Part shown: piece after piece, positions 2,829-63,006 of the stretch
Layout of the letters: each line of letters begins with the position of its first letter
Numbering within the stretch: position 1 is the stretch's first letter
Source: Kingdonia uniflora
Taxonomy: Eukaryota; Streptophyta; Magnoliopsida; Ranunculales; Circaeasteraceae
Length of the DNA stretch: 64,000 nucleotides
Assembly: GCA_014058105.1 (NCBI GenBank)
Contig: JACGCM010000655.1
Location: forward strand, 2,192,501-2,256,500
Direction: 5' to 3'
The notes under the pieces: model-generated
Seen by the model: only the letters and a program-made list of their open reading frames with translations
Database searches by the model: none
Told to the model about the DNA's origin: nothing
Program-made: the position numbers and the translations under genes

Positions 2829-2837
2829 GTACGCAAG
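2829..2837 (-). repeat. 9-bp micro-insertion (GTACGCAAG) with empty site in relic 2
   Basis: It lies between C2828 and T2838 right after motif C. Relic 1 reads Ser-Ala-Tyr-Ala-Ser-Phe-Leu-Glu-Asn-Pro. Relic 2 at 50879-50905 reads Ser-Ile-Phe-Ile-Glu-Asn-Pro. The only length difference is the three codons of the unit. The empty junction in relic 2 is C50885|T50886. Confidence 0.88.
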
Positions 2838-3162
2838 TTTTCTAGAAAACCCACTACCAGAAGACCAAGTATCCTCCACCGAGCTCGGTAAGTGGAAATT
2901 AGAAAACAAAGTGAAACGAGCGGGGCATCTTCTTGTTTTTTTACAAAAAGCTACTCACTAGAAGTCAAAGAAGAAGGGGGGGTCGTGAAACATAAGGGAC
3001 CGGCAAAAGAACACGCGAATGCTGAGTGGTTTCGGGAGCAATATAAGGACCTCTATCGCACGAAAAGCGTTGAAGTCGAGTTTCACTTTCTGGTGAATTG
3101 GGCTAACCTGACAATCTCGAAAAAAGTCACTCAGATCAGGCTGGGAATCAAAATAGGCACAA

Positions 3163-3170
3163 GTAGTTTA
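3163..3170 (+). repeat. 8-bp micro-insertion GTAGTTTA in polymerase relic 1
   Basis: Relic 1 reads GGCACAA-GTAGTTTA-GGGAGCCGG. Without the 8 bases the frame runs Gly-Thr-Arg-Glu-Pro-Val-Phe-Asp into the conserved tail WIDTVPKEVLDL. With them the frame shifts, which is what is observed. The exact boundary is ambiguous by 2 bp because AG occurs at both ends. Relic 2 carries a different unit at the homologous position (51238-51248). Confidence 0.8.
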
Positions 3171-3969
3171 GGGAGCCGGTGTTTGATAATAAATACTTAT
3201 GGATCGACACGGTTCCTAAAGAAGTCCTAGATCTCGGGGGTGAAGACAATGCGGTACGCGAGATAGAATCAGAGATCCTGGAGCAGGAGCTAGCGAAAAG
3301 CAATAAGGAGAATAGGACCGCTATGTCAATAGAACGTATCGAACAAGAATAGGACGCTACAAGAACGTATCGAACAAGCCTTGGAAGTGGAGCACAAAAG
3401 GAAGGGGAGAAGACAAGCCGAACAATAAGGGTGGAAGACAAGCGCCTTGGAAGTGGAGCACAAGTAGAAGACTTCTACTAGCCAGCAAGAAAGAAAAGAC
3501 AAGTCACCGGTCAGCGCTTCTTTTTTCCTAGCCCGCCAAAAAAACTAGTCATGCCATTAGCGCTGGACCCTCAAGTAGGCGATTTCTTATTAGTAAAGAT
3601 ATGGAAAGCCATAGGAAAGAAAAGCGCCTACCTGAGGTTGATGGTCATCTTCTATTCTTGCGCCGCTATTTATATGCTTTCGGCGCTTTGGACCCTTTTT
3701 TTAGAAGCCAAAACGCTACTAGCACCAGGTTATGCACGCTACTTTCTTAAGGCGTTTGTGAGGTAGGTTCTTCTTTATAGGCTCCTTCGCTTTCAGGGTT
3801 TGGTCTTCACAGGCCGTCTATGCCTAAAAAAAACCGACGAATAGGTAGCTTTGGGGCAAGATCTGTGTTTTGGAACTTGCGTACGTGGAGTTAAGTTGCA
3901 TGTCTTAGATAGCAACCCGCTAAAACACACGCAAAGAAAGGCAAGATCGAAATGGGTCTTGGTAGCAAA

Positions 3970-3990
3970 CTTGCGTACGAACTTGCGTAC
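3970..3990 (+). repeat. Two adjacent 9-bp units three bases apart
   Basis: CTTGCGTAC occurs at 3970-3978 and 3982-3990, separated by GAA. Removing both leaves AGCAAAGAAGAAAAGAAGG, a simple purine-rich string in which both insertion points are A-G steps. This fits two independent insertions at neighbouring AG dinucleotides. Confidence 0.7.
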
Positions 3991-6900
3991 GAAAAGAAGG
4001 GAGGAAACTATATCCAACGCAAGAAAGAAACCAACGCAAGAAAGAAAACTCTATAGATCTGCGTCGGCTTTATAGCTAGAACGAAACCCGCTTAATTAAT
4101 ACTGGTCAACCGAAGTCTTACGGTACCCTAACAATAGGATACTCTTTCGGATCCACAAGGTGCTGCGAGCATATAAGCCCTCCAAAAAAAGACGCCCGTC
4201 TTCTTTTTCGTTCGATCCTTATGTTGTTGCATTGGCGAGAGTGGTAGGTATTTTCTTCTAGCTTTTAGAACCATCTAGGTAGGATCCTAAACTACGAGCT
4301 AGCAAGGAGAGGAGCCGTAGGTAGCCTAGTTAAGCATTGTAGAGTCAATTAGAGCTAGAACTCTTTTGGAGGTGGACAACAAGATAAGCAGATTGAGTTA
4401 GAACTCTTTTGGACTTGCGTACGGTGTTTAAACTACATCTGTGATTTTCCATAAAATATACATTACGCTAAAGCTAGGGGGTTAGAGGGAGGATGTTGCT
4501 AGTGGTCTATAGGCGACCAGCGCTTTCTCGTACTATAAGAGACAAGACAGACACACCGCTTCGATTACTATAGAGAAGAGACTATAGACATTAGAGAAGA
4601 GACAACACGGAGCTTCGACGCGTTGTAGTCGTAATGTCTATAGTCGCTCGCAGTTCTGCCTTTCACCCTACGAGTCCTACAGTGGCCAAGGCATGAATGA
4701 GTAGTTAGGGGCCTCCTTAACTACGCTGCAACACACCCATTGCCACCCGTCATCTTTGCTTTGCCAACGCTTTTTCTATCTCCAAAGCTATGCTATTTCG
4801 ATCCTTAAAAAAAATAGGACAAACGTAGGATTAGGATAAAAAAGAAAATAGGCGTTGAAGCTAGTAGTTACAGCTAGATTTCTCATTCGAAGCCCTAGGA
4901 AGAGATGCTAACCCGGCAGGTGCGACTAGCCCCAAAAATATGAGAAGAAGAGGCGCGGAACCTTCGGCATAGTGGTACGCGTGAATAGCGATCGCATCCG
5001 GGCTACAATAGGAACTTAAACCCCTTCTATATACATAGTTTTAAATAGCTCTTTTATTTTTGGCGTACGCAAGTCTAACGGCTATTCTAACAGAAAGCTA
5101 CCTCTCTTTCTTGCTGTGGATTTGATCTGCGTACGCAAGTTTCTAAAAAAAGGGAGCTAGGATCCTTTCTTGCTGCTTTGCTTTCTAAACTACGCTGGTG
5201 ATTTCTTGCTCTTCCTACAAGATCTAACACTAGGTCTCTAAAGCCACGAAAACTAGGTCTAATACCTTATCCACGAGAAAGAAGAACAATAAAAAGCAAC
5301 CGGTAATGCGGTAATGTTTGGAGACAACCAACTGATAGACATTACTTAGGTGCCGTCGTGGCATTAAATCGTCGGTAAGTAGACCCACCAAGATAAGCGA
5401 GATTGAGTTAGCTTTCTTTTAGTGGAGTTAAGTGAGCCAGAAGCCAGAGGAGTTATGGTATTTTTAAAAGCAAGCGACTTGCGTACGGTGAGCCGAGGAT
5501 CCTAGGCGAATAGCGTAGAAATAGCAATAGTGTTAGCGGTAAAAGAAAGAGGATCCTAGGCTTTTGTAGTTTAGAAGACGATGGAAAAAATGAGAAGCAG
5601 GTAGTTATGGTATTTTTAAAAGCAAGTGGAGCTAGTAAAAAAACTTGCGTACGAGGATCCTAGCTATGGGTTGTTATATATAAGGATAAGGAGGCTCGGG
5701 TTACCCACTTCATGGGTTACCGGGGGTGGTGCTGTTATATAAACGTTGGAGGTGCGAGTTAAAGGAAATCAAATAGGAGGCTTCAAAAGGAGTTACCCAC
5801 TTCAAGGGTTACCGGAGGTTTAAAGGCTTTCTTTTCTTTTAGAGCGTCAGTTAAACTTGCGTACGAAGAAGGTACTAAGGAAAAGAGGTGGTGCTAGTAA
5901 AAGAAAGAGGATCCTAGTAGCTTTAGCAAGGTTAAGGCGTCAGTTAAAGAAGCCGGACTTGCGTACGTTTAAAAGGGTTAAAGCTAGCTTCTGTTAGGAC
6001 TTGCGTACGTTAAAAAGGGCTAGAGGTGCTAGCTTCTGTTAGGACTTGCGTACGTTTAAAAGAGTTCTGTTAGGGTTTTAAAAAGAAGCCGGAGGAACTA
6101 AGGAAAAGAGGTGTTTTCCAAAGCCATTAGCCAAAGGCGAGTTAGGAGTTATGGTATTTTAAAAGCAACCGGAGGTTTAAAGCCATTAGAGCTCTTTTCT
6201 TTTAGAGGTGGAGCTATGTGCGCTAACTTGCGTGCGGTGTAAAAAGCCAACAACAAAGGTCAGCTGGAAAAGACCTAAGATTGGGTCCTAAAAGAAAGCT
6301 CGGATGTCTCTAGGCCTAGTTGCATCCGCTGCTTCAGTTGTTGGAAGTCCAAAACTGTTAGGAGCAGCATTGGTTTAAGGCTTTCTACCAAAGTCGAAAT
6401 AGGCTACGGGTCTACAGTCGAAATGGGAGCACAGCATTGGTTTAAGGCTTTCTACCCAAGTCGAAATAGGAGCACAGCATTGGTTTTGGCTTTCTACTCT
6501 GTCTACGGGTCTACCGCCTATTTTCTCCTTTCCGCTGCTTTTTTAACGTACGCAAGTGACGCCTATTTTCTCTATAGCGCTTTATTTTGGAAGATGGATG
6601 ACGACGTCTTTTCCTTAGCTTAGCTAGTAGGGATACGTTCGGTGTGTTGCACAGCATTGAAGCTTTCTTTTGGCAGTGCTTCAGTAGTCCAACCCCTATG
6701 TGGCAGTGCTTCAGTAGTCCAACCCCTATGCTTATGGAGTCCAAAGCAAGACTCCGAAGCCAGGCTTTTTACAAGGAAAAGGAGTCAAAGCTTGCAGCTT
6801 CTTTCATAGCGAGTTTGGAAAGAGTAGCTAGGTAGTTAGAGCGCATTTTTCTTTCTAACTACTTTTGGCCTTGAGTTCTTTCTTGGTGGATTCTTTACTT

Positions 6901-8201
6901 GCCGGATATTCTTTCTTGCTGGAACTCACACCCTGCACTTTTAAAACCGAACTTGCGTACGACGAAACCTGGGACCTAAACCTGAACACGAAACCTATGC
7001 ACTTTTAAAACCGAACACGAAACCTGCACACGCCCTAAACCTGCACTTTTAAAACCGAAGAGTTGTGCCATTATAGACATCGGTTAGGTTGCCCTTTTAA
7101 AAGGGATTTCTCCTCTAAGCCCCAGATAAGCGAGATTGAGTTAGTGCCAGAATGACCGGGACATTTGCAAGACGATCACGGAGTCCGGAGTGCCATAGAT
7201 TTGAACGAATCAACTGACGCCCTAGTTCACTTTGATTCAAAGAAACTGTAGTTTGGAAGCCGGTAAACAATGAAAGAAAAGCAAAAAGAAAAGCGTGAGT
7301 TTTTTTTGTGGATAAAAAGAAGGTAGCCTAAAGATTAGAGAGGTGTTAATAATTTCTTTTGAAAGAAAGCTGTGAAAGCGTGGAGCGTAGATCAAGGATC
7401 CTAGTGAGAAGAAGGAGTTATGTCTTTGGTTGCTAAAGCTAGGATCCTCAGAAGGTAGTTTGGAGGTGTTAATAATTTCTTTTGAAAGAAAGCTGTGAAA
7501 GCGTGAGCCTAAAGTCTTTTAGCAAAAGAATAGGTTCAAAAGTTTGAAAAGAGCTCTTTTGAAAGAAAGCTAAAAGAGAAAGCGTGAGCAAGGATCCTAG
7601 AAGGATCCTAGCTCTAAAGAAGGCCGCCAAAAAAAGGATCCTCTTTTTTTTTGGACTTGCGTACGGTGGGAGTTATGGTATTTTAAAAGCAACCGGAGGC
7701 TTGGGTGTGTTTTAGAGGTGATGCTCTTTTGGCGATGAAAGAAAGTTGCAAGTGCTTAAGGGTTAAGGTGTTTTCCAGCTGTTAGAAAGCCATTAGCCTA
7801 AAGGCCACTAGCGTAGCAAGTAGTGGTAATGTCTAAAGCCATTATTTAAAACAAAAGATAGTTTAGCGGAGGGTTAAAAAAAAGAAGGAGTAGTGTTGGT
7901 CCTTTTATATAGAAGTTAAGCGTGACTTGCGTACGTTTAAAGGTATTTCAGACCGTAGTTTAGAAGCAATTAGAGGCTTATCTTAAAAAAAGAAAGAGGT
8001 GGAGTAGCCAAAGGCAAGTGGAGTTAGGTTTAGGTAGCCGGAGGGAACTCTTTTCAAACTTTGGACCAGAGGTGGACAGAGCCATTTAAAACAGAGGCGG
8101 GGTGTGGGGTAAGGTAGCCTTTCAAAAACGCAGAGGTGTGGAGCTCTTTTCTTTTAGCTCTAAATAGGAGGATCCTTAAAGAAAAGAGTGAAAAGACGTA
8201 A

Positions 8202-8444
8202 GTGCGAGTTAAGAACATTTGCGCTAAAGAGATGTTGGTCCTATTCTATGATATAGGAAGACCAATTTCGAGCGCTTCGAAAACCGAGTTATCCAGTTTT
8301 AAAACGCTTTCTTTCTTTGCCGCTAGTTTAGGAACCCAGGAGGAGCCTCCCTTGCGTGTCCAAAACAACTCTCTACGTACGCAAGTTCTTTTCTTAGTTG
8401 GGGAAACTTGCGTACGCGGAAAGAAATTTGATGACCAGAGCTAA
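8202..8444 (+). pseudogene. Open-frame relic with partial second copy near 62.4 kb
   Basis: The frame contains the hydrophobic-leaning string LSSFKTLSFFAASLGTQ and ends FDDQS-stop. DNA at 62420-62575 shares CTTGCCGCTAGTTTAGGAAC-like and TATGACCAGAGC-like segments in the same order, so both derive from one ancestral sequence. Two 9-bp units interrupt this copy near 8374 and 8406. The protein family is not recognised and there is no convincing start, so this is treated as a relic. Confidence 0.35.
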
Positions 8445-8853
8445 CGAATAGGATGGATTCGTTTAAAAGCGTGTGGCTTTTGATGATGGAAAAGAAGCAG
8501 GAATACGGGCCGCTTAGAGCTTCGTTTCACTAGGGGGTTTGTCTATCAGTCTCTTTTCCTTCATCCCTTGAATCTACTGATAGACAAAGCTACTACGCCT
8601 ACACCCGACTTAGGGGGGATCCTTCTCTCTTTCTTCCACTCTTGGTGCAGCAAGAAAGGCCCTGCCCTATTCAAGACCGCTGTTAGCTAGTAGGCTATAG
8701 CAATGGTCACTTTATGCTCCTTTTAAGAAGTCTCTCCGTACGCAAGTCCGTAGTTCATCAGGTTCAGGAACCCATATCGTAGGCAAGCCCTGCTAACCAC
8801 GGGTGTGTTGAAGACATAGGGTAGTGAAAACAGCGGCGGAATAGCTGTTTTTT

Positions 8854-8907
8854 TTAAGGGAAGAAGGCTTATTTTAAAAATTAAGGGAAGAAGGCTTATT
8901 TTAAAAA
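8854..8907 (+). repeat. 27-bp tandem duplication
   Basis: The unit starting TTAAGGGAAGAAGGC and ending TTTTAAAAA is present at 8854-8880 and again at 8881-8907, head to tail and identical. Confidence 0.9.
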
Positions 8908-8941
8908 AGAGCTAGGATAGGATCTATGCTCTAAATAGATA

Positions 8942-9011
8942 GCTATCTATGCAGGATTTGTGACTCCCAACAGGTTCTGCTATCTATGCAGGATTTGTGA
9001 CTCCCAACAGG
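8942..9011 (+). repeat. 33-bp direct repeat, two copies
   Basis: The unit GCTATCTATGCAGGATTTG followed by TGACTCCCAACAGG is present at 8942-8974 and 8979-9011, separated by TTCT. The copies are identical. Confidence 0.9.
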
Positions 9012-10302
9012 AGAAGATCTACGCATGCTATCCCAGAGGACTTTAAATAGGATAATTTTAATTTGGCAAAAAAAGGCCTACACGATGCGATTGGCTAGGG
9101 CGTAGTCTGAACCTGCTGCGGCCTAGAGCTCTACCTATTCGTTCGCGCTATGTCTAAGCGTTGGTAGGGTGTTATAGTTTGGCGAGAGTTTTCATGCATT
9201 ACAGGCGCACTATTCTACCATATCCATCTAGGAGCTTCTTTCCCCCCTCTGCCTGACGATCAACATCGCCTACCTTTCCCTTTTTTAAACAGGTGGAATG
9301 ATCTTTTATTTCGTGCTACCCCCGCAGCTATACCTCTTGACCGGAATCCTCTTGATTCAAACAACTAGCATTTTTCGTTTTCGACGCGATCTCAAGGCAT
9401 AGAAAAGGCTAGCACAAGGGCGTCATAAGAAGTAGAAAGCATCTCTCTCATGCATGGACCAGAGAAGTTCTTACACCCCAAAAAGACATCTCGACACTGG
9501 CTTCTCATTTTGGGGGCCCCATCAGCAACAAAAACAAGCAAAAAGAGAAGTGTCGTGTGCCAACGTATAAAGTAGCTATGTCTGATGAAAAGGGCAGGAT
9601 TGGTACTCGCTCTGCACCACAGGTTGTAAATGCTAGGGTTTTTACCCTAGGATCTCATCTCCGGTTGGGAATGCAATGCTAAGGTCTAGCTCCAACTATT
9701 CTAGGTATGGCTAGGGTATCCTAGGACTTCTCCTTTTTGGAAGCGCTGTGGCTTCACTCTTGGCCTTGTCTATTCTATAGCTATAGTCTTTTGGATCTAG
9801 AAGGCATGGGCGCTTTTCTTTGGCTTGGACTTAGAGGAAGGATCCTATGCGCTGGTCGAAAACAAAAAATGCAACTGTAGAAAAGCGGCGGCGTTTGTTG
9901 CTGCAGAACTGCTGAGGACTAGTAGTAGCCCATCTAAGCAGAAGGTTTTTGTAGTTTACTTGCGTACGGGGAAGACTATACAAAACAAAGTGGGGCTAGT
10001 AGGCCCGGGGAATACTAGGACTTCGAAGAGCAATCACTTTTTGTCTATCATACGTCGATACCGTTTTTGTCTTTGCGGCTTCACCCTATTGCCCGGGAGA
10101 GCTAAGGTTCCGGGTTCTAATTCTCTTGACGAGATCCATCTCTAACTACTTCCAGCTATTCTTGATTGCTGGGCTTTAAAAGGAGGAGCCGAAGGTATAG
10201 CTAGAGTTAGGTAGCCGTTAGGCGGGGTTAAAAGGTAGTTTAGCAACAGAATAGGTAGGATCCTAAACAACTTGCGTACGGTGAAAAAGAGCTATTTTAA
10301 AA

Positions 10303-10353
10303 CGGATAAATAGTGGATGATGGAAAATAGGATCCAAACTACAAACTACGTAA
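10303..10353 (+). repeat. 51-bp repeat shared with 56050-56100
   Basis: This segment is identical to 56050-56100. It joins two arms at a GGATCC core: GGATGATGGAAAATA on the left and CAAACTACAAACTACGTAA on the right. It illustrates how the short units are combined into longer repeats. Confidence 0.9.
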
Positions 10354-12228
10354 TGTATATAGTAGCGCGGGAGTTTTTAAAAGAGTAAAAGGAGGTAGCC
10401 GAAGGTGGAATCCAGAGGTGGAGCTACGATGTAGGATCCTTGCTCTTCCTTACTTAGCTGACGCTTCCAACGCTTTAAGGCATGCACCACTGAAAAACCT
10501 TATGTGAACAAGAAAATAAGGGGATCGCTTTAAAATAGGTCTCTAAATACACGCAAACTAGGTCTAAAAAAAAAATCCACGCACTTTAAAATAAGGTCTC
10601 TCATTCACCGTACGCAAGTCCGGGAAAAACGGTCTCTACTATAAATCCACGCAAACTAGGTACGCTTTTAAATAGGTCATATATAAAAGAGTGAGACATG
10701 ACGATCAGGTATAGGGTACGATGACCAGAAAGTGAAAGATGACGGAAAAGATTACCTGGTTGTGACGCCCCACCTCCGGTGTCCTCTCGCTATTGACGAG
10801 AAAACCTTTGCACGTCACGAAGCGCACATGACCGGAAAGTGGATACAGTGTTTAAAAAGGCCGACGCATCTTTCCTTTTCGGTTCCTTCCGCCGTATAGA
10901 GGCCGTTCAGGCTGTGCATTTCTAAGACCTAAACACCAGCACTATAGAGACCAAGCAGGCCAGGCCTACTAATTCGTCATCTTAGACTTTTCCGTCATGC
11001 GTGAAGTTTCTCGTGCTGGGTTTAAAAGGAAAGCAAGAGCGTCTCTTTGATGAGCGCGTGAGCTATGTAAAAACGCCTTGGAAGCCTTAGCTCTCTCCAA
11101 CACACCCAGTGCGTTATAGCCACTAGCCCTAAACTACGCAAGAAAAGAATAGGCTTTCTCAAATCCGTAGTTGTAGTTTAGGGCGCTTTTGCTTTAGTGA
11201 AACTCCAGTAAGAGATCTAGGAAGGATCCTCGGTGGCTACTTCTTATCATCCGTCTCTAAACTACTTAACTCCTTTTAAAGCCCAACTCTTTTTAACGTA
11301 CGCAAGTCCGGCTACTAGCAAGAAAGAGAGAAATCGTTGGCTAAACTTTTGCGCAAGATACTTAGTGGAATAGCTCAGCGTCTCTTACGTTGTAAAAGAC
11401 AAGAAGGATCCTTGGCGGGGTGATAACAAGAGAAGAAGAAGAAAGACAAGAATTTGCTTGTCTTTTTTCTACGACCGCTACGCTCCTTCTAGAGTGATAA
11501 GCGAAAGTAGCAGCGTGGAATCTATGGACAAAGGTTTAGAGCACTAGAAAGGTACTTGCGTACGCCGAAAGATAAGGTAGCAAAATAAGGTTCTGTTAGA
11601 GCTAAGAGATTGAGTTAGAATAGCACCAGAGGTAGCAAAATAAGGTTCTGTTAGAATAGACATTACGCCAAAAGAAAGCTAAAAAAAGCGTGACTTGCGT
11701 ACGTTTAAAGTAAGACAAGCATGAAACTTGCGTACGAAAAGAGCAAACTCATTGGACACCGGAGGCTAAAAAAAACCTGAGGTGGGACTTGCGTACGTCA
11801 AAAGGAAGCCAGAGGCATGAGTAAAAAGAAGCGAGATAAGCGAGGACAAAAAGAGTCAATTAGAGCTGTGAGTTAAAGAAGCCGGAGGAAGGGCCGGGTG
11901 ATCCACTCTGACCATCATGAAGCTCGGGAAGCTCGGGGGAAAGTGAAACTCCGAGGAAGTAGACGTCCGAAGACTTGCACATTTCAGAAGTATAGGACTC
12001 GGAAGACATGTAGGAAGAAAGAAGAAGAAGAAGCGGACCCACAGGTAGCTATTTGCTTCGTCATAGGCTTCGACCTTTCATTCCCAAGCGCCTTTAGCGA
12101 TAGGTCGTCTACTTACTATAGCTATGTATTGAGTTAGAACTCTTTTGGAGGTGGACTTTTTTAGGAGGCGGAAAGAGGCTAGGGGTGTGCTGCGGAAAGA
12201 GGCTAGGAGTTAAATAAGAGTCGGGGCG

Positions 12229-12439
12229 ATGGTTGCGTCGTTGGTAAGTCAACCTTTTTCGCTCCAAAAACCGGGGACTCCCCTCACTGGAATCAGAAAT
12301 ATCGTTCTCGCGACAGAAGAAGAAAGAAAGGATTTGCAACCTATTCGCCTAGTAAGGGAGATCGGAGCGAAAACAGGAGAAGTCCTTTATGAGGAAACCC
12401 ATTACCCCAACTATCAAGATGACCGCTACATAAAAGGAC
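12229..12439 (+). pseudogene. Protein-like open frame, family unknown
   Basis: The frame is free of the dispersed units for about 200 bases and reads like a real charged protein (RNIVLATEEERKDLQPIRL, then VREIGAKTGEVLYEETHYP). After roughly residue 75 it runs into an A-run and repeat material, so the end is broken. It could be an eroded plasmid or nuclear gene piece. No family is recognised. Confidence 0.35.
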
Positions 12440-17809: not shown

Positions 17810-17831
17810 GTAGTTTAGGATCCTAAACTAC
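17810..17831. repeat. 22-bp perfect palindrome centred on GGATCC
   Basis: The sequence is GTAGTTTA + GGATCC + TAAACTAC, identical to its reverse complement. It combines two inverted copies of the CTAAACTAC unit around the GGATCC core. The same palindrome occurs at 39317 and 63639. Confidence 0.95.
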
Positions 17832-20800: not shown

Positions 20801-20881
20801 TAAAGGGCCTGGGTGTCATCCTCTATCTTCCTTGAATCTACGCACTCGGCTTCTCCTTGAATCTACGCACTTGGCTTCTCC

Positions 20882-37601: not shown

Positions 37602-37808
37602 ATGTGCCAAATGTTTGGAGAGTCAATCTTTGCAGAGAAATGCGCCAGGACAGGAGTGGATGACTTACTTCAGAGTAAGAGGACCAGAGATGGATACTAT
37701 CTTGGCTCTATTGACAGGAGCTTGCTGTGCTTGCACTTCAGTCGCTGGTTGGGTGAAAAGTTGATTCCATCCATAGATAGTCTACGCATGAGAGGAGAGA
37801 GCACCTAG
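37602..37808 (+). CDS. Hypothetical 68-codon open frame
   Basis: The frame starts with ATG and reads a balanced sequence with GVDDLLQSKRTRDGYYLGS followed by LHFSRWLGEKLIPS, with no dispersed unit inside it. No family, signal peptide or membrane span is evident. The immediate left flank is a GTAGTTTAG unit. It could be a fragment of an eroded gene; expression cannot be judged from sequence. Confidence 0.25.
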   Translation: MCQMFGESIFAEKCARTGVDDLLQSKRTRDGYYLGSIDRSLLCLHFSRWLGEKLIPSIDSLRMRGEST

Positions 37809-39316: not shown

Positions 39317-39338
39317 GTAGTTTAGGATCCTAAACTAC
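39317..39338. repeat. 22-bp GGATCC-centred palindrome, second copy
   Basis: It is identical to the palindromes at 17810 and 63639. A TAGACATTAC unit abuts its left end and the 50-bp composite repeat (39337-39386) overlaps its right end by two bases, so three module types are joined without spacer. Confidence 0.95.
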
Positions 39339-39386
39339 TAGTTGCCTAAAATATACATTACGGCGTACGCAAGTACAACCATCAGG
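39337..39386 (-). repeat. 50-bp composite repeat, inverted copy of 21550-21599
   Basis: It is the exact reverse complement of 21550-21599, including the internal 9-bp unit and the AAAATATACATTACG-type unit. Such inverted pairs could support recombination between distant parts of the molecule. Confidence 0.92.
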
Positions 39387-40869: not shown

Positions 40870-41095
40870 AAAGGACAACTAGGAGTCCAACTTTCTTATG
40901 ACTATAGGAGTCCAACTTTCTTATTCCAACTTTCTTATTCCGGAGCATCTTCCCGCTAGGAGTCTAACTTTCTTATGACTAGGATTCCAAACTTTTTTAT
41001 GACGGAGCATCTTCAACACAATAGTTCCGGGAGCATCTTCTGAAAAAACTAGGGGTCCAACTTTCTTATTCCGGAGCATCTTCTGATTCTGACTT
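40870..41095 (+). repeat. Imperfect repeats of TCCAACTTTCTTATG and GGAGCATCTTC
   Basis: The strings AGGAGTCCAACTTTCTTATGAC (with variants) and CGGAGCATCTTC alternate irregularly about ten times in total. The order of the pieces varies, so this is a scrambled rather than simple tandem array. Confidence 0.8.
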
Positions 41096-42224
41096 CTTTT
41101 TCTACTAGAGTAGTTGGTATAGGCGTAATGAGCTCAGTTCTTTCGCAGCTTGCAGTGTCTCCCTTCTTCGTTCTTTTCATCTTCGTTCATTCTTCATCCT
41201 GATGGTGGATAAAAGAGGGTGAGTGGCTTCCAAAAAGAGCATAGGTGATCAGTGGTCTTTTTGAAACGCTAAGGGCTTTCAGATGCTGGGTGTGGGTCCT
41301 TTTAGGATGAAGCTATAGAGAAGCTATAGAAAAGAGCTAGCGCCTTGTCCAATCCAGGCCTTTTTTTAGCCAACTTGCGTACGCTACTAAGTAGACTATT
41401 CAGTTCCGATGGATCAGTGGCTACAGGTCCCAGAGTTTTTTTAGGGCAGCAGCATGTTGGAGGTCCCAGAGTTTTTTTAGGGCAGGAGTGTGTTGCGAAC
41501 CAGATCTTGTACTTGCTTATGCCGCAGTTGAGATAGAGACCCACATGCTGCAGCAGCATGACGGAAGGGGTATAGCGACGCAGATAGAATCTATAGCCAT
41601 AGGACAGACCTCAGACCTAACATAGAGATAGGGGCGTAAAAAAGCACCAGCTTTTAAAGCAGTATCAGTCAAGTAATGGTTCCAAGGGTTCAAGGCAAGG
41701 ATCCTAGTGGTGCAGTCCTTTCGTTCTTACCAGCACTTGACAAATATCGAGCTCTCTTCAACCAATGACTTGCGTACGGAGATCATGGTGTGTTTTAGAC
41801 CAAGCGCAAAGGTTTAAGAGGGGATAGGCATCAGTAGCATGTCAAGCAAGGATCCTCACTATAGAAGGATAGCGAATCCAGCTCTACTGTCGTCCAGCCT
41901 CCTTTTTTTAAGCCTATGACAATCGCTTTATCTATAACACAGGTATGCATGGAACTACTACGACTTGCCGGTAGTTTGGAAGCAAAAATAGTTTCACTGT
42001 ACGCAAGTGCGTACTTTTTGTTGAAAATGGAACCAACTTGCGTACGGAAAAAGGAAAAGAGCTATTAATAAAAACACTTACGTACTTTTGGGTGTCCAAA
42101 CTACAAACTACAACTACTTAACAGCTACAAACTACTTAACAGCTACTTAACAGCGCAAGTTTAAAACAAAAGTAAACTCTAATCCACTGTAGGGGTGTGT
42201 TTTGGACCTGGAATGAAAAAGAAA

Positions 42225-42375
42225 AGCTCATCGCAGCGCAGCCTAAGGTAAAGGTAAGGAAAGCTCATCGCAGCCTAAGGAAAGCTAAGCTCATCGCAGC
42301 GCAGCCTAAGGAAAGCTCCTCGCAGCCTAAGGTAAGGAAAGCTCACCGCAGCGCAGCCTAAAGAAAGCTCATCGC
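42225..42375 (+). repeat. Short tandem array, AAAGCTCATCGCAGC type
   Basis: About six copies of AAAGCTCATCGCAGCGCAGC followed by CTAAGG occur here, some lacking the internal GCAGC duplication or carrying GTAAGG extensions. It is typical slippage structure. Confidence 0.88.
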
Positions 42376-43063
42376 AAATCCAGGACGAAAGACAAGAGTC
42401 AGCATAGGCCCGAAACGAGACTTCTTGATCGAGTCTTGGATCTATGGAGCACCGACTTAAGCGATTCTGATCTATGAAGGATCCTTGTTTTTTTGTCCTG
42501 CCGGAGCCCTATAGGTATTAGGTATAGGGGGAGCATCCACTTCTTTGCATCCGAAGTCCCTTGACCTAGGCTATTTCGACTAGGCTCCCTTTTTTTGAAA
42601 CCCTACCTAAAGAGCATCAAGAAAGAATCTCCACTTCCAAAGGCCGAATGCGCTACCTTGAAGTAGTCTATAGTGCTTTAAATAGAAGTTTAAAAGGGTG
42701 GGAATGGGTAGTTCACGAATGGAGTTCAGAAGTCTGTGGACATGAGCACTAGACTTCCATCTTGAGTGGCGCCCTAACATTGGACCAAGTCTGGCCTATC
42801 CATCCCAAACACACACCTAGCTTATTGATTCCTTCTTTCCTACGTAAAGAAAAGGGCTTTAAAAGACGGTGGATAAGGAGACTTCGGATGCAAAAGGGGG
42901 ATTGGGGAAGAGCTCAGCTCTTGTGGCCTGTCATGGAGTTGCCATGGGGAGCCTATAGCCTATAGCCTATAGGAGGATTTGTGTCGCCGCTATGAAGTCT
43001 TACCTTTTGTCGCTCCGCCGAGCTGCGCTATGAAGCCACGATCGCTACTATAGCTATAGCCAC

Positions 43064-43267
43064 TCACCTTAGGATGGGTAAGCCTGAGCGAAGTATGAGC
43101 CCTTTGTTTGAGAAGAGATAAGGATCCTTGCAACTTTCCTGATCAACTACCAATTTCAAACGTTGCAAATAACCCTCGAACATGGCTTTAGTAGAGACAA
43201 CGCCGCTATACGCTGCTGTAGAAGACAGTAGACGTCTTTCTTTCATGATTCTTGTCACTAGACCCAA
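43064..43267 (-). CDS. Hypothetical 67-codon open frame
   Basis: The minus-strand frame contains STAAYSGVVSTKAMFEGYLQ and VVDQESCKDPYLFSNKG, a composition like a coding sequence. It is largely free of dispersed units except AAGGATCCTT near 43121. No family is recognised. It may be a retroelement or nuclear fragment, but that is a guess. Confidence 0.22.
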   Translation of the reverse strand: MGLVTRIMKERRLLSSTAAYSGVVSTKAMFEGYLQRLKLVVDQESCKDPYLFSNKGLILRSGLPILR

Positions 43268-45801
43268 GCGCCTTTTGTAGTTTAGAAAGCCAACGTAGTT
43301 TAGAATCCTTTGCTTTCTAAACTACGCTGGGCTTTAGTAGTTGTAGTTTGGAGGCATGAGTTAGGCGATTGATTGCTGGAACGTAGTTTAGAATCCTTTG
43401 CTTTCTAAACTACGCTGGGCTATTTCTTGCTGTGGTGTGGAACTATTTATTGCTGCGCTTTCTAAACTACGCTGGATTTTGCAAGTGCAGACTATAGCGA
43501 AAATTGGGAAAATCCCCGCTCTTGAGACGTGAACTAGAATCTTCCCACTTCTAAGCTAAACCCCTCCCGCCATCCGTAGACCCATCTTTACCGCACACTG
43601 TATTCAACATTGACCTCATAGCAAATAACTAGTTTCCCATACTTATTCCCAGCTCGGCTCCAGCAAGGATCCTAAACTACGGATGATAGTGGGTGGTTTT
43701 CGCAAAGAGTAGCCTACAGAGGAATAGGATTTTGCTCCTAAACTACGCTCGACGCGAGGTTTCCTTCCTATAGAGCATAGCTGCTCCTAAACTACGCTCA
43801 CTATAGACAGTAGACTTACGTAGTTTAGGATCCTATTTTCCATCATCCGCTAAACTACTTATCCGTTAAAAAATCACTACACCTTTAGACAAACCTACTA
43901 GACTCGCTTTTCACTACTAGTTTTTTTAGGTCCAATCACAAGAAGTGGATATCCGCGTAAGAGAGCGAGAGTAGCGTAGTTGCTACGCTACCCCAGAGGC
44001 ATTTTCTCATCTTTCTTTTTTTAGGATTTGACTGCGATTTTCGCTCCTTAACCTATAGCGCTAAAGCATTGGAAAAAGCGCGAAATTTTAGTAGTGACAT
44101 TCTTAGGTCGACTGAAAGGAAAGAAGAGAGCAATAGGTAGCTTTTTTTGGGGGCAGATTCCGTCCACAATAAAGAAAAGCAAACCCACTACTTCTTTTTT
44201 TAGCCATATGGTCCTTACTATGCTTCGACACGTAAACTAAGTGCATCTCTAGCGCAAGATGAGGTTGTCGAAGAAGACCTAGCAAAGCAAGATGAGGTAG
44301 TCGAAGACTGGCGAGTGCCGCTGCGAGACGAAGATCTATGCCCTAGCAAGATGAGGTAGTCGAAGACTGGCGAGTGCCAAGGAAGCGGAGGAGCCCAGAG
44401 GGAACCGGAGGGATTAAGGAAAAGAGGTGGCTTGTCCTTATATTGAGTTAGCGCATAGGAGGCGATAGTGCGAAGGTAAGAACGAAGTGTAGGCGAGGAA
44501 AGCATATGCAAGCGTCAAAAAAAAGCAGGCAAATGTAGGCGAGTCGAAGACAAAGGGAGAATCCGCGCACGATGAGAGTTTATGTCTATAGCTATAGTAA
44601 GTAGTAGACCTATCGCTATAGTGGGAATGAAAGAAGCCTATGACGAAGCAAATAGCTACGACCAACGCAAGACTGGAGCCAATGTCAGAAGGATCCTAAA
44701 CTACGCACGATGGGGTAATCAAAAAGCATAGAATGTCTTGTTAACGTAGCGCAATGAAGAACGAACGAAACTTGCGTACGATGAATAAGACTCGAACCAA
44801 AAGATTCTCGAGACCCGCGTTAGCGTTTTAAAAGAGTAGAGTCACAAGGATCCTAGCAATAGTCATGGGCTTCCTTATTTTTTAATAAAGCGCTTTTTAA
44901 AACCACCTACGGCTACCACTTCCGGCTACCACCTCCGGTGTCCTTCGAAGACAGAAAGACAGAATGCTACCTGCAACACATCAACGCCCTTTGACTTTCT
45001 ATATAGACATAGACGCGTCTTCCTCGCTCTTACTTGAAGGGGCATGCTACGTATTACGGTTGTTGGTTAGCAGGGGTGAAAGAGGCCAGCCTTGGCTCAG
45101 TAAAAATCCGTGGAACTCTGCTGAATTCTGCAAGACCTACACAAGGAACTCTGCTGAATTCTGCAAGACCGGCACAAAGAACAAATAGGGCACGCATCTG
45201 AACTCGGCGAATATGGATACCGAAATACCACGTCACCCTTTGTTTTTAAATCGTAGGATTTATTTGATTATAACTGAACCCAGCGTAGTTTAGAAAACAA
45301 GTATTGTGATAGTAAGAGTGCTAGGTAGCTTTTTTTAGAATAGGAACCATGCTGAGCTGGCTTTAAGCATTAAAGAAAAGAGTTCAAAAAGATGATGGAA
45401 AAGGAGCTATTTCTAATCTACCCTTTGACTTGTTTTTAAATCATTGGATTTCTTTTATTATAACTGAACCATCCACTATCCAAATTGCCGGATGGAAGAA
45501 TAACCCGAGGTCTAGGATCCTTGCCGGATGGAATAATAACCCGAGGTCTATAGCGGCGCCTGGGGTTATGAGTTTGAGCTATAGTGGGATTTAGCGCTTA
45601 ACTTGCGTGCGAAGAAGTGAGATCGCGCAAACGTTTTGATTTCCCGGATTTCGCGCTGAAAGAAAGATGTCTTTCAGACCGATCCTTGCTTGGTGTGGGT
45701 CTCTAGTTGATTTGCTTGCTCCTTACTCGCTCCGCCAATTGTTTGCTCCACCTCTAGCTCCCATTTTTTACTCTGGCTCTCTAACTACTAAAACCTCTTT
45801 T

Positions 45802-45832
45802 CTTTAATACTTGAAACTTACGTACGGCTACC
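45802..45832 (+). repeat. 31-bp composite carrying the ACTTACGTACG variant
   Basis: The composite CTTTAATACTTGAA + ACTTACGTACG + GCTACC occurs also at 46489-46519 and 63686-63716. It occurs at 27880-27910 with T for G after the unit. Inverted forms lie at 34017-34047 (with the common ACTTGCGTACG unit) and at about 50435-50459 (variant unit). The G-to-A change marks a sublineage copied as a block. Confidence 0.88.
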
Positions 45833-47397
45833 TTCTTTTGCATCATCCTAAAAAAGTAGTTAGAGTGCCTCTAAAACTACACTACTTCCCCTTCTTTATG
45901 CACAACCTCCAAAGAAGTAGGTAGTTTTGGAGTGCCTCTAAAACTACACTACTTCTCCTTCTTTATGCACAACCTCCCCTGAAGTGCTTCTTTCTCCAAG
46001 CTGCCTTTTGCACAATCCACCCGGAGTGCTTCTTTCTCCGTACGCAAGTGATCTTGTATTTGCTCTTCACTTCTTTTCTTTTCTCTTCTATTTGCTCTTC
46101 ACTTCTTAAAAACTCTAGTCGAGCATCCTTCTTGGCGTAAAAAAAGCCTGGGTTCTAGCTTTCATCTCAATCCTTCCCTCCAACTACGGTGATCCTTTTT
46201 TAAGTAGGCAATCTGCTTAGTTTGGCTTCATCCCCCTAAATAAAGAAATCATACTTCTAAACTACTCCTTAGTCTTCGTTCTTTAGCTCGTAGTTTAGGA
46301 TCCTACCTATTCTAAAAAAAAGCTACCTGGCTTTGCTTTCTGGCTTCATCCTGGGGTTTTATCTTTGTGATAGCAACGAGAGGAGTTAAGAAGCTTCTTT
46401 CTTGCTAGTGGGTTTTGCTTGCATAGTGCTTCTAAACTACTAAACTCCTTTAGACATTACCACTACCTCTAAACTACTCTTTAATACTCTTTAATACTTG
46501 AAACTTACGTACGGCTACCTCTTTTCATCGTACGCAAGTAATCGGAGGATGGACTCTATTGCGCTTCGGATGGACTCTATATTGCGCTTCGGAGGATGGA
46601 CTCTTGATGACCTGCTTTGTGGCTTTTGACTTCTGAAGGAGGTAAAGGCTGGCTAGAGGTAAAGGCTGGCTATAGGATATTTCCATTTTTTCCAAAGGCT
46701 TCCGGTAGGCTTTCTCCAGTTCTCTCGTGATTTCTTGCGCTTTTCTTTAGTCCTAATCCAGTGTTCTTCTCGTGATTTCTTTCTCCAGTGTTCCCTCGTA
46801 ATTTGTTGCGTCCTAAGTTCTTCTCGTGATTTGTAAATAAAGACAAAGGAAAAGGCAGAGTGTAGTTTACTTGCGTGTAGTTTCGGAGACTTGCGTACGG
46901 TGAATAGCACCCCAAAAGGTCCGAGATGATGAAAGCGTCTAAGCCTTGAGATGAGAGTTGCTAAAGCTAGGGATGGGGATCTGATGTAGCGTCTTTAAAA
47001 CAACTCGGACCTATCCCTACCTAAAGCCTTACGCGCTGAATCAGGCATCATAGATAATAGCGCTATAGCCTAACTAGCTGCATCTTGCCAGACCCCTAGC
47101 CCACTTATGTCATAGGGGAGGAAGGAAGGGCGAGCCTATACCGACACGATCCCCAAACCTTTGGTAAAAAAACACTCATTTCAAATAGCGACTATAGGCA
47201 GTATTTGTCCTGCTGTAGCCTATTTCAAACCAATGCCTTTTCACCGCACGCAAGTTACCAAGACAGCCGCCTATTTCAATCCAATACCCTTTGGTTGAAG
47301 CATCTGAGCTCTCGTTCTTTGGGAGCCTATCTCTTATCTACCTACTTCCTTCTTTCACTTGATCATCTGAGCTTGACCCACCTCTAGGATCTTTCTA

Positions 47398-47640
47398 TTG
47401 AGTAGTGGTTGTGGCGCACCAAAGGCAAGGCGCAGTAAAAAAAGAGATCCAATGTGGAGCAAACTTTCTATTCATCCACAGGTCCAGGTAGTGGGTTTGT
47501 CTATAGGACTCAGAAGAAAAGAGCTCAGCTCTTCTATCGAATGTATACATCCCGCCTTAGGATTACCGCGCTTTTTCATGGATCACCTAAGAATGCGTCT
47601 TCTAGCTACTTTTAGAGATCACCCCGCTAGAAGAGAATGA
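47398..47640 (+). CDS. Hypothetical 80-codon open frame
   Basis: The frame is basic and leucine-rich, with VQVVGLSIGLRRKELSSSIE and HPALGLPRFFMDHLRMRLL. It crosses one A-run but no ACTTGCGTACG unit. The string GCGTCTTCTAGCTACTTTTA near its end recurs at about 19759, which argues against conservation as a protein. Family unknown. Confidence 0.2.
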   Translation: MSSGCGAPKARRSKKRDPMWSKLSIHPQVQVVGLSIGLRRKELSSSIECIHPALGLPRFFMDHLRMRLLATFRDHPARRE

Positions 47641-48097
47641 AAAGAGGGTCTTTTTTTTGAATAGACATTACGGCGAGCCTTTTCAAAAAAAGGTCAGATG
47701 ATCAGAGGACCCAATAGAATAGGCTTTTTGATCAGGATCGAGGCATCTTCAGCTAGCTAAAGAAAGAATGCACTCTTGTTTTGCTTCTGGGTTCTTCAAC
47801 CTCCCCTTCCTGCCTGATTAGTGAGCTGGCTTCCTTATACTAGGCCGAGGCGACAGCTCTAAGTTAGCCGCAACATAGCCCGACCGCCTTTCCAGATCGC
47901 TCGTATTTTTAAGAAACCAGCAATGCTATGTCGTTCCGTCTTTCCTATAGCTATACCAATAGCGAGGCTAGAAACCCAGAGAAAGCGAGGCTAGAAACCC
48001 TTATAGATGGAGTGTGCTTTATTAATAAACTGCTGCGTGGGTGAAAGCCGGACTTGCGTACGTTAAATAAGGGCTTTAAAAGGAGTTTAGTAGCTAG

Positions 48098-48118
48098 AGA
48101 CGGTGGAACCAATTAGAG
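48098..48118 (-). repeat. 21-bp unit CTCTAATTGGTTCCACCGTCT family
   Basis: Full copies of this 21-bp unit (first part CTCTAATTGG, second part TTCCACCGTCT) lie at 37345-37365 (minus), 39201-39221 (plus), 48098-48118 (minus), 48396-48416 (plus) and 50469-50489 (minus). A shortened copy lies at about 27974-27991 (plus). Flanks differ, so it is a dispersed family separate from the 9-bp unit. Confidence 0.9.
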
Positions 48119-49752
48119 GAAAGGAGTTATTAATAAACTGCTGCGTGAGTGAAAGCCGGAGATAGAATAGCCATGAAGAATTTTAGGCAGCTACCGCCAC
48201 TATAGTCAAAGATTCCATCTCCAACTATTTGAAAGCGTTGGTTGACTCGGAAGCATAGGTTTTTCACCCTTTATCCACCGTCTGGAAAGCGTCTCTAAAC
48301 TACGCTACTTCTTGCTTTCCTTAGCTCTTTTCCTTTTCCACTGATACCTATTCTAGTGGGCACTACGGTAGCTTGTAGTTTGAAAGCTTCCTGTCCTCTA
48401 ATTGGTTCCACCGTCTACGTTTCCTAGCCGTTGGTTGACTCGGAAGCATAGGTTGACTAGGGCTTTAGTAGCCTTTAAAGAGACTTGCGTACGTTTAAAA
48501 GAGTGAAAGTAGTTGTAGTTTGGAAGCGTGGTTTTGGTTTGCACCTGTCCTTTTATCCACCGTCTCTAAAAAAGGAAGCGTTGGTTGTAATGGCTTTGTT
48601 TGGAAGGATCCTAGGAATGAAAAAAGAGCAGCCTATAACTTCGATGCTACTTGGGTCCCTCTCTATGGCACATGAATCACAGCGCGTAGTGCTATTCCAT
48701 GAATCACAGCGCATAGTGCTATTCATAGATAGTTGGTTCGCATATCCCCGACCTACCTTACATTCCAGCACCTAAAAAAAAGCCTCTGACTTATCCTATC
48801 CGTAAGCAGAGAGAAGAGAGGGACCCACTACGCTTATATGCTAAAGAAGCAAAGCAAACTAGAAGTCCTATGAGAGACGGGAGAGAGCAAAGCACTAATC
48901 AAAAAAGGGGTAGACCTAAGCCCAGTTTTCCATCATCTTTCGCTGTACGCAAGTCTTCTCCTTTTTCAACCATAGACTGAGCATGAGACGTGCAAGCCGC
49001 GAAGGACGTGGAAAGCAACGATAGACCCAGTGGGTCTCTCGTTTTCCATCATCCCTCCCACCACTTTTTTTAGAAGAGCCAGTGAGAATCGCTTTTTTGG
49101 GGGGATCGGCGAAGCTCTTGATGCTTGGTTAGTCTACTAAGCCGCGTGGAGAGCTCATAGTACGCGTAGCAAGACTGATGATGGATGCGCCGTTCTAGTA
49201 GCACCACTTCCTACTAGAATAGAAGCCAATAACGTAAGACAAGCGTGTTTTTTTTGCAGACCCTTTTAAAAGCCCTTACATCTGTCTGAGGATCCTTGTA
49301 ATGGCATAGGAAAAAGGAATGACCGTAAAGAGGCCCTAAAAAAACCACCAAGGAAAGCAAAAAAGTAGTTAAAGACACTCTAAACTACCTTTTTGTTGTT
49401 TTTAAAAGAGGAGCGAAGACCTGAACTAGCAACAAGTTCGCAGGTTTTCAAAAGAGGAGCTACGAATACCTGAGCTAGCAAGCGTAGAAGTAGCGCCGGG
49501 CCTAAACCAACTAGCTTGCTTCGCACATATCAGCTAGGTGGGTTGACTCAACTACTATAGGTTTGGTCTAGGTTTGGGCTCAGTTGCGCACTTGCTTCGC
49601 TCCTTGCAGGCTCACTTTGATCATCCATAACCAATACTAGACCTATGGCTCTGCCCTCACTCACCACGTAGGTGAAATCTCTCTAGTGCTATAGTTATGT
49701 GTCACTGATGCCCCGCCTTTGCTTCATTGTCTCTCTCTTTCCATCTATCGCC

Positions 49753-49799
49753 GTACGCAAGTTTGCTTCTTGCTCTTTCCATCTATCGCCGTACGCAAG
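49753..49799 (-). repeat. Two 9-bp units with a perfect empty site at 49714-49733
   Basis: The DNA CGCCTTTGCTTCATTGTCTC at 49714-49733 is uninterrupted. At 49787-49815 the same string is split after CGCC by GTACGCAAG (49791-49799). Removing the nine bases restores identity over at least 20 bases. A further copy at 49753-49761 follows ATCTATCGCC in the same tandem series. This is the cleanest filled/empty pair in the window. Confidence 0.93.
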
Positions 49800-50908
49800 T
49801 TTGCTTCATTGTCTCTTTCCATCTATCTAGAGGTAGGGATTGGGGATCCCGTTTTGCCTGTCTCTCTACTTGACCTCCTTGCTTCACTCCAGTTCCTCTC
49901 TTATACGTGTGGGCTGGCCAATACTACGCTTAGTGGGTCTCTAGCTACTTCCATCATATTTTTTTCTATCCTAAAAAAAGTAGGCGGATAGTCATGGGTT
50001 CCTTCTCTCCCTTTCCTTTCATAGAGCTTTCCTTTCATAGAGCTCTTATGCGCGTGGTGGCCAAAACACAAAACACAGACCTGTCTTTTTTTCCATCATC
50101 TTTCTCTACTCTGCTTCTGGAATGCCTATAGGGGATAAACTGCTCACTTGCTTCGTCACTTAAAGACTAGAGGCTTCGCTTCTATAGGGACTTGCGTCGC
50201 TGATTCTTTAAAGTAGCTAGGGGACTGATTCGCTCTTCCTCTATAGACCGACTACGTACATCGCGACTGACTTCTTTCCACACGCAACACCCCTAACTAG
50301 AGCATAGCTTTCATGCCAAGGATCCTTCTCATCCATACAGATTTGGCGATGGCGGATAGAGGTTCAAAAAAACCCATAGCTTTATAGCTATTCAGGAAGA
50401 GCGATTCGTTCGGGTGAGACCCCATTTTTGTGAAGGTAGCCGTACGTAAGTTTCAAGTAGCAACAAGTAGACGGTGGAACCAATTAGAGGGCTTTCTAAA
50501 CTACGCGCTGTGTTTTAGAAGCACGACTTGCGTACGTTAAAAGGTACAGTAGTTTGTAGTTTGGAGTACGTAGTTTGTAGTTTGGAGCATTTCAGACCGT
50601 AGTTTAGAAGCAATTAGGTAGTTTAGCCGCAAAAAGAATAGGTTCTGAAAGAAAAGAGCTAGGATTGAGTTAGGAGTCAAGGTAGGTGGTCAAGAAGGTA
50701 AGCAGGAAGATAGTACCCCGAAGTCGATATGGATAGGCGAGAGTTGGTGGCTATAGTCTTTTTTCCGAGAGCAGGTCTGGAGTGGAGCCCAGAAGTTTGA
50801 CGAGACAGACCACCTAGGATCAGACACCCATGTTGCATAGTCCTCTTCCAGACCATCCACGAGAATGCGGTACTTTCTTTCCATCTTTATAGAAAATCCC
50901 TTGCCTGA

Positions 50909-50946
50909 AAGCGAAGTATCCTCTGTAAAGCGAAGTATCCTCTGTA
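50909..50946 (+). repeat. 19-bp tandem duplication inside relic 2
   Basis: AAGCGAAGTATCCTCTGTA is present at 50909-50927 and 50928-50946. Relic 1 has a single equivalent. The extra copy shifts the frame; dropping one restores EVSSVEMGKWKLE. Confidence 0.9.
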
Positions 50947-50994
50947 GAGATGGGGAAGTGGAAGTTGGAGCACTTCGTCGAGCGTGGGATCTTC

Positions 50995-51003
50995 GTACGC
51001 AAG
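50995..51003 (-). repeat. 9-bp micro-insertion with empty site in relic 1
   Basis: Relic 2 reads ATCTTC-GTACGCAAG-TTAGCC, giving Gly-Ile-Phe-Val-Arg-Lys-Leu-Ala-Pro. Relic 1 has CATCTTC|TT at 2926-2934 with no unit. Removal gives Ile-Phe-Leu-Ala-Pro-Lys-Ser. The flanks are C50994 and T51004. Confidence 0.9.
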
Positions 51004-51137
51004 TTAGCCCCGAAAAGCTACTCACTGGAAATAAAAGAAGGGGGGTCGTGAAACATAAGGGCCCAGCAAAAGAACACGCTAATGCTGAGTGGTTTAAAGA
51101 GCAAGACAAGGACCTATCTCTCAAAAAAATAGTTGAA

Positions 51138-51146
51138 CTTGCGTAC
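51138..51146 (+). repeat. 9-bp micro-insertion CTTGCGTAC with empty site in relic 1
   Basis: Relic 2 reads GTTGAA-CTTGCGTAC-GTAGAA where relic 1 reads GTTGAAGTCGAG at 3069-3080. Without the unit the two translate as KIVEVE and KSVEVE and stay aligned, gap-free, to NLTIS. The empty junction in relic 1 is A3074|G3075. Confidence 0.92.
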
Positions 51147-62994: not shown

Positions 62995-63006
62995 CTAAAA
63001 AAACAC

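Follow-up and report, generated by a model that had tools for sequence, protein, structure and literature searches.

A nine-base insert with a preferred target in mitochondrial-type DNA of Kingdonia uniflora

Introduction

A 64,000-nucleotide stretch of the Kingdonia uniflora genome assembly (GCA_014058105.1, contig JACGCM010000655.1, positions 2,192,501 to 2,256,500; hereafter the window) carries the nine-base sequence CTTGCGTAC over and over again, including within two decayed copies of a plasmid-type DNA polymerase gene. How does a single exact word of nine letters come to be scattered through a genome: has it been inserted, into which sites, and by what kind of process? An earlier reading of the window's letters (the original prediction) had claimed that the two polymerase relics reveal the unit as an exact nine-base insertion between an A and a G, two bases that would themselves belong to the target. 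Our analysis makes it near certain that the nine-base unit is an insertion. Its target is RA|RNNGAAANNAR; insertion occurs in both orientations and neither removes nor duplicates bases of the target.

The abundance of the unit is far beyond chance. Exact copies number 161 in the window (90 on the plus and 71 on the minus strand) vs 0.53 expected, and none of 100 shuffled windows held more than three. The base before the unit is A in all 161 copies, while the base after it is G in 148, A in nine and T in four. Spacing is near random (coefficient of variation 1.10; 25 gaps of less than 60 bases vs 22.4 expected). The unit is 5/9 G+C, is not self-complementary across its length, and contains no stop codon in any of the six frames. 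Partial units are scarce: vs 326 whole units, CTTGCGTA without C was found four times, TTGCGTAC without the leading C six times, and CTTGC and GTAC separated by one base once.

33..63590, both strands: range covered by the window's 161 exact units (exact-match count)

The unit in polymerase relics

The relics, the units within them and the matching empty sites are as follows.

1659..3466, plus strand: relic 1, plasmid-type DNA polymerase B with frameshifts and stops (PF03175; tblastn, 120 of 120 homologues)
50820..51538, plus strand: relic 2, C-terminal part of a plasmid-type DNA polymerase B (tblastn, 104 of 120 homologues; 74% DNA identity to relic 1)
2478..2486, plus strand: unit CTTGCGTAC at site 1, residues LRT (outgroup proteins; empty in nuclear copies, CTAA|GAAAAG)
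2829..2837, minus strand: unit at site 2, residues YAS (outgroup proteins; nuclear copies read GATTCAGC|TATTC; empty in relic 2 at 50885|50886)
50885..50886, minus strand: empty site matching 2829-2837, reads C|T (27 of 27 spanning outgroups ungapped)
50995..51003, minus strand: unit at site 3, residues VRK (outgroup proteins)
2932..2933, minus strand: empty site matching 50995-51003, reads C|T, with a few extra bases of its own beside it
51138..51146, plus strand: unit at site 4, residues LAY (relic 1 aligns ungapped to the joined flanks; −9 in the DNA comparison; outgroup proteins)
3074..3075, plus strand: empty site matching 51138-51146, reads A|G (99 of 100 spanning outgroups ungapped)
1669..1677, minus strand: additional unit in the polymerase open reading frame (ORF), absent from the original prediction, base A at +1 (exact match; spanned by 0 of 120 outgroups)

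Within relic 1, PF03175 was matched by the ORFs 1629-2141, 2192-2530 and 2374-2961; two ORFs tried in relic 2 gave no match to this family, and relic 2 was identified through its homologues. For the outgroup test, 544 homologues of the relic were found among the 7,999 best word-sharing candidates that were scored, and 120 of these were used. A second search, with a nuclear copy, yielded 338 homologues, of which 120 were taken and 72 were new, resulting in 192 proteins, each counted only where it spans a unit position.

At site 2478, 142 of 145 spanning outgroups are short by exactly three residues (the other three by 2, −1 and −4), which bears out a fourth insertion that had been proposed from the reading frame. 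The same holds for 121 of 123 at site 2829 (the other two: 5) and for 87 of 88 at site 50995 (the remaining one: 1). Site 51138, which lies in a linker of variable length, is less uniform: 71 of 101 outgroups lack exactly three residues, 14 lack two, seven one, three none, and six four or more. The expectation that every outgroup would lack the three codons therefore stands almost completely at three sites and in part at the fourth; outgroups carrying the extra codons are absent at those three sites, and at 51138 amount to the 3 of 101 without a missing residue.

Polymerase copies on other contigs (L034-L050, G+C content 0.34–0.40), taken as nuclear, are unfilled as well. A net nine-base gap was found in 11 of 13 rows at site 2478 and in 14 of 15 rows at site 2829, where two rows represent one place and where net length was counted, as the aligner shifted the gap by four bases or split it in some rows. 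At 3074|3075 the net difference is 0 in 16 of 16 rows. The fetched DNA of L034-L050 contained no nine-base unit. They make up 17 diverged polymerase rows, mostly 63–67% identical to the relic with short pieces up to 83%; one of them, L040, matches protein GIB67_002978 of K. uniflora without a difference across 196 residues. The mitochondrial contig itself has another short stretch of the polymerase, its third, with 70% identity to the relic (L051, C196:1986371-1986521).

All coordinates given by the original prediction for four units and three empty points are correct on the window sequence, and its exact nine-base insertion at A|G holds both in the polymerase, by outgroups and nuclear DNA, and elsewhere in mitochondrial DNA (mtDNA). 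Its claim that removing nine bases restores a gap-free pair stands at the other pairs and falls at 2932|2933, where a few additional bases are peculiar to relic 1 (net 4–7 vs nuclear copies, −5 vs relic 2). Since the relic 1 pair is not gap-free there, the evidence for site 50995 comes from the outgroups rather than from the pair of relics.

Insertions away from the polymerase

Duplicated stretches in the fetched DNA give independent instances. In an unbiased list of their gaps, CTTGCGTAC forms an exact nine-base gap at three non-polymerase places besides 2829; nearly every gap that recurs in more rows of this list belongs to the nuclear polymerase family and represents a single place in many copies. 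When the flanks of 413 units were joined, 48 had any spanning relative and 22 a gap-free one, vs 33 and five for 413 random nine-base removals, and one of those five was the CTTACGTAC variant of the unit. A cut scan over offsets −2 to +2 and lengths 5 to 13 peaked at offset 0 and length 9, with 14 of 415 sites. Within the window alone, which has few duplicated stretches, the offset scan gave no pair above threshold at offset 0. Individual cases in the window are:

41997..42014, minus strand: nested insertion, in which one unit has entered another, inverted one at GTACGCA|AG (un-nested counterpart in the window)
60187..60220, minus strand: the un-nested counterpart, a single unit (joined-flank comparison)
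29608..29616, minus strand: unit within a repeat that is empty at L017:6287-6327 (joined-flank comparison)
53736..53793, plus strand: empty copy of the repeat that is filled at L015:5623 (duplicated-stretch comparison)

In addition, a recurring repeat, GCCGTAATGTATATTTTAGGCAACTA, carries the unit at an identical point in five window copies (21563, 39365, 55156, 55277 and 55784), and has unit-free relatives at L021:7863-7901 and L019:3778-3819.

Among the 23 empty relatives (22 from the joined flanks and the 51138 pair), the junction reads A|G in 17, G|G in three, A|A in two and A|T in one, and target bases at the junctions are neither lost nor duplicated. The proposal to assign the constant A and G to the target thus holds in the main, with the qualification that G is a preference, since A or T follows some window units.

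Accounts in which the empty sites are deletions, or the units a conserved functional motif such as a promoter or binding site, have a negligible probability and no supporting point that we could find: explanations by deletion, slippage or motif fail on the outgroups, the duplicated stretches, the cut scan and the nested unit, the outgroups (142/145, 121/123 and 87/88) and nuclear copies lack the residues, and units lie in both orientations and in dead reading frames. Microsatellite slippage, a basecalling artefact, a regulatory motif and deletion in the empty copies were all rejected as candidates.

Genomic setting

The window sits on contig C196, which is 2,494,347 bases long and held 12–36 units in each of six sampled 10 kb stretches (L014-L019) with a G+C content of 0.435–0.452. 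Three tRNA genes lie in the window, and an open cox1 frame (537 codons) is found on a different contig, C2609, amid DNA with the same repeats. Because of its units, its G+C content, the tRNAs of the window and the setting of cox1, we infer that C196 is mitochondrial; as this contig spans 2.49 Mb, the mitochondrial genome of Kingdonia is probably of megabase size. The conserved mitochondrial protein gene searched for in the assembly was cox1, while Pfam searches of ten window ORFs gave the polymerase only, and an Rfam scan of 13 loci gave two tRNAs and no group II intron.

Across the 1.003 Gb assembly, ACTTGCGTACG occurs 10,686 times (5,349 and 5,337 by strand) vs 76 (45 and 31) for the reversed control; this count takes in nuclear copies, and confinement of the unit to mtDNA and its copies is only partly established. 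In viral and prokaryote contigs, a search for the two-copy unit pattern returned 1 and 12 stretches, respectively, each with 2–3 copies and no swarms.

The target and its filling

The preferred site was derived from 311 deduplicated sites of 325 in 124 kb, and extends further than had been recognized before, with G at +4, A at +5 to +7 and A or G at −2. Compared with all A–G steps, the frequencies are 0.80 for A/G at −2, 0.68 for G at +4, and 0.87, 0.62 and 0.50 for A at +5, +6 and +7. A at +10 and A/G at +11 contribute less; there is little preference at +2 (G, 0.43) and almost none at +3. An example is AAGGTGAAAGCAAG.

A target model trained on the window was tried on L014-L019 (160 units), excluding units whose 16-base flank was in the training set. 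The filled share was 32/74 in the best class, 54/259 in the next and 8/5,919 in the poorest, shares that are slightly high because filled sites were counted at any +1 base and empty ones at A–G steps only. Elsewhere, the best class was filled in 10/99 sites in stretches with nuclear copies of mtDNA and in 5/15 on contig C144. None of 7,886 A–G steps in the nuclear polymerase loci was filled, 32 of them being of the best class. In the mtDNA sampled, nearly half of the best targets are thus filled, and in the nuclear polymerase loci sampled, none.

This difference also bears on a sequencing or assembly artefact, whose probability is practically nil: the data are the assembled sequence of a single assembly, but the same class of target is unfilled in the nuclear polymerase loci, and units in stretches taken as nuclear copies of mtDNA have decayed as real nuclear DNA does, 13 of 38 variants being CpG transitions inside the unit.

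Variant units, their source and their age

In 131 kb of mtDNA, 327 intact units stand vs 26 with one substitution, and 21 of these 26 are of just two kinds, CTTACGTAC (15 copies) and CTTGCGTGC (six copies). Once CTTACGTAC is set aside, CTTGCGTGC makes up six of the ten remaining copies; if the nine transitions were equally likely, such recurrence would have a P of 2.7e-4, or about 0.002 allowing for the choice of the commonest class.

34813..34821, minus strand: variant unit CTTGCGTGC at its own target (unrelated flanks, proper target class)
6227 (plus), 45602 (plus), 47246 (minus) and 57997 (minus): other CTTGCGTGC units at unrelated targets
46504..46512, plus strand: variant unit CTTACGTAC, empty in L018:3529-3570 (surfaced among the random-removal controls)

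The units seem to be copied from a source, since repeated mutation is an unlikely origin for CTTGCGTGC at targets that are unrelated to one another. The variants therefore point, less firmly than the insertion and target data, to a source with a major and at least one minor version. CTTACGTAC lies mostly within two repeat families and also at three unrelated targets (L015:2108, L017:5071 and L029:6635). Both variants are C/T differences on the GTACGCAAG strand, and it is our guess that they reflect RNA editing of the template.

The contigs taken as nuclear with mitochondrial DNA (L020-L027, L031, L052 and L053; 110 kb) hold 48 intact units; a further 38, of 16 kinds, differ from the unit by one substitution, and a few of these may be chance matches. 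From the counts of intact and variant units in nuclear and mitochondrial DNA, it seems that units have been reaching the nucleus for a long time and decay once they are in it, and that mitochondrial units are young or kept uniform.

How might nine bases be written?

The account that we favour, at a probability of about 0.6, is target-specific cutting followed by templated addition of nine bases, with both the enzyme and the template being postulated. A sequence-specific endonuclease would cut or nick the RA|R target, and repair would add nine bases copied from a template, which could be an RNA or existing units. As the insert would split the recognition site, a filled site would be immune, and units would pile up until the good targets are used. 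A cut or nick with nine copied bases would explain why the inserts have a fixed length and clean junctions, why the target is one-sided, and why saturation and variants are seen. The spacing of the motif (−2 to +1, +4 to +7, +10 and +11) resembles protein contacts rather than base pairing. Being nine bases long and free of stops in every frame, the unit would be comparatively harmless in reading frames; nothing shows a benefit of it to the plant.

Several observations weigh against this account or parts of it. The cut scan has a small second peak at length 12 (five sites), the best of the other lengths at any offset, and the G at the left junction in 3 of 23 empty relatives could mean that the sequences have diverged or that the insert sometimes differs from nine bases in length. 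Filled flanks are nearer to the consensus than their empty relatives (17 changes vs 9, sign P 0.17; an indecisive count over all 22 joined-flank pairs and the 51138 pair), and some flank copying may accompany insertion; such a lean is also expected if better targets are filled first. The weak +2 and nearly free +3 are easier to reconcile with recognition by a protein than with base pairing to a fixed template. CTTACGTAC, the commoner variant, could be an ordinary C-to-T mutation. No endonuclease, reverse transcriptase or template is known for the unit, and no search aimed at an endonuclease was made. Finally, the absence of units from cox1 (zero vs about 2.9 expected from the target model, P 0.057) is at most a hint of harm: one flank with 3.5 expected also has zero units, and the expectation is off by up to twofold elsewhere (18.9 vs 35 in L015).

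The flank data are one reason to consider template switching without a dedicated enzyme, in which, in the course of replication or of the repair of a break, the growing strand would leave its template at ..RA for a unit already present, copy nine bases of it and rejoin the target at G..GAAA through short homology; the motif would then be no more than the flank that copies share. Thousands of copies could serve as donors, the consensus offers short homology on both sides, filled flanks lean (not significantly) towards it, and microhomology-mediated repair occurs in plant mtDNA. We nevertheless regard this as unlikely: the left homology is just one or two bases, +3 is unconserved and +2 weak though donor letters there would be fixed, switching predicts variable lengths rather than the sharp boundaries of the cut scan, and the nuclear polymerase loci are untouched.

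A more specific form of the cut-and-copy account is speculative and itself rather unlikely. Here, an RNA-templated mitochondrial enzyme, acting much as in prime editing, would nick RA|RNNGAAA and write the same nine bases repeatedly; template variants GYACGCAAG and GTACGYAAG, perhaps partly C-to-U-edited RNA, would yield the variant inserts, and the GTAGTTT family described below would be a sister product of another template.

A free molecule of nine bases, either DNA or RNA, that transposes directly or is reverse-spliced would explain the fixed length and sequence, both orientations and the intact target bases. This route appears quite improbable, as we know of no transposase or ribozyme that acts on a nine-base molecule, and the long 5′ match needed for group II reverse splicing is absent, with -1 and -2 only. 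The chance is slighter still that the units are scars, nine bases remaining where a larger element, with CTTGC... and ...GTAC as its ends, had inserted at A|G and was then excised imprecisely or lost its interior. Transposons commonly leave footprints of a few bases, but these normally vary, and hardly any half or longer units were found vs 326 whole ones.

Comparison with known systems

Homing introns and endonuclease genes insert into a recognized site and thereby destroy it, so that filled alleles are immune. Like them, the Kingdonia unit splits the core of its recognition site, RA|R; unlike them, it has no coding sequence, intron or long flanking homology. DNA transposons and miniature inverted-repeat transposable elements differ from this nine-base unit, which has no terminal inverted repeats and no duplicated junction bases. 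IS200/IS605 elements insert without target duplication 3′ of a fixed short target; the Kingdonia unit has no duplication and a preferred target, but the preference lies mostly 3′ of the insert, and nine bases leave no room for the subterminal hairpins that a HUH transposase recognizes (no transposase search was made). Group II retrohoming relies on intron RNA and a match to the 5′ exon (IBS1 and IBS2), whereas the left-side information here lies mainly at -1 and -2.

The following comparisons draw on excerpts of the papers cited. Bpu-like elements of Cycas and Ginkgo mtDNA are 36 bp long, contain a Bpu10I site, have AAGG as direct repeats at their ends, and count 486 and 504 variants in two Cycas genomes (PMC8297867). 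Like the Kingdonia unit, they are many near-identical short copies dispersed in seed-plant mtDNA, and they have been called mobile; the unit differs in its nine bases, its lack of a terminal repeat and its more than 10,000 assembly copies, including nuclear ones. Yeast GC clusters are mobile, G+C-rich palindromes with AG or TAG terminal repeats that are read as target duplications (PMC8811140). They resemble the unit as short mtDNA inserts with AG borders that also occur in reading frames (var1 for the GC clusters), whereas the unit has no spanning palindrome and no duplication, and its single flanking A and G are present in the empty site in 17 of 23 cases. The short fragment insertions of Annulohypoxylon stygium mtDNA, likewise revealed as small insertions by mitochondrial genome comparison, are of 44 kinds of 12–106 bp, many with inverted repeats, in at most eight copies (PMC6140425). 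These three are the closest systems known to us, and the Kingdonia unit differs from each in size, repeats and target. Among the open-licence papers listed by the searches, judged by titles and the starts of abstracts, no account of the unit or of the Kingdonia mitochondrial genome was found, and the matches examined from a text search for the nine letters were unrelated by the same measure.

A second short family

The hexamer GTAGTT occurs 736 times in 151 kb of mtDNA vs 30–195 times for four rearranged hexamers. In at least five pairs, GTAGTTT in a filled copy faces a single A before AGG or AGA in an empty relative, a net gain of six bases.

Window positions 39317, 17826 and 16859, L017:4850 and L019:6749: GTAGTTT family sites (filled/empty pairs)

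A length scan for this family peaks at six, with 15 of 435 sites. Relatives were found for 29 GTAGTT sites; among the 22 of these that were inspected, several are tandem repeats of the same hexamer and uninformative. Besides these, the palindrome AGGATCCT is very common, with 275 sites across the mtDNA and nuclear copies that were fetched (e.g. window 5654-5661), and is often fused to the GTAGTTT family as TAGGATCCTAAACTACG (22 times); its length scan gave no exact insertion length. Should the GTAGTTT family be confirmed, the nine-base unit would not be the only short word that this mitochondrial genome writes into itself.

Significance

The mtDNA of Kingdonia is peppered with nine-base inserts at one preferred kind of site, far smaller than the mobile elements with which we compared them. 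We know of no accepted mechanism by which plant mtDNA fills with short dispersed repeats, and a fixed nine-base insert is smaller than anything that, to our knowledge, is moved by a transposase, ribozyme or intron. Whatever writes these nine bases is for that reason of interest in itself. Decayed units in nuclear copies of mtDNA are a possible clock for the insertions. Sixty K. uniflora plants have already been resequenced, according to an excerpt of the report on them (PMC9866071). Because the insert is exact to the base, its empty target is known, the motif is predictive and earlier states survive in nuclear copies, the process is open to experimental tests and to tests in these 60 plants.

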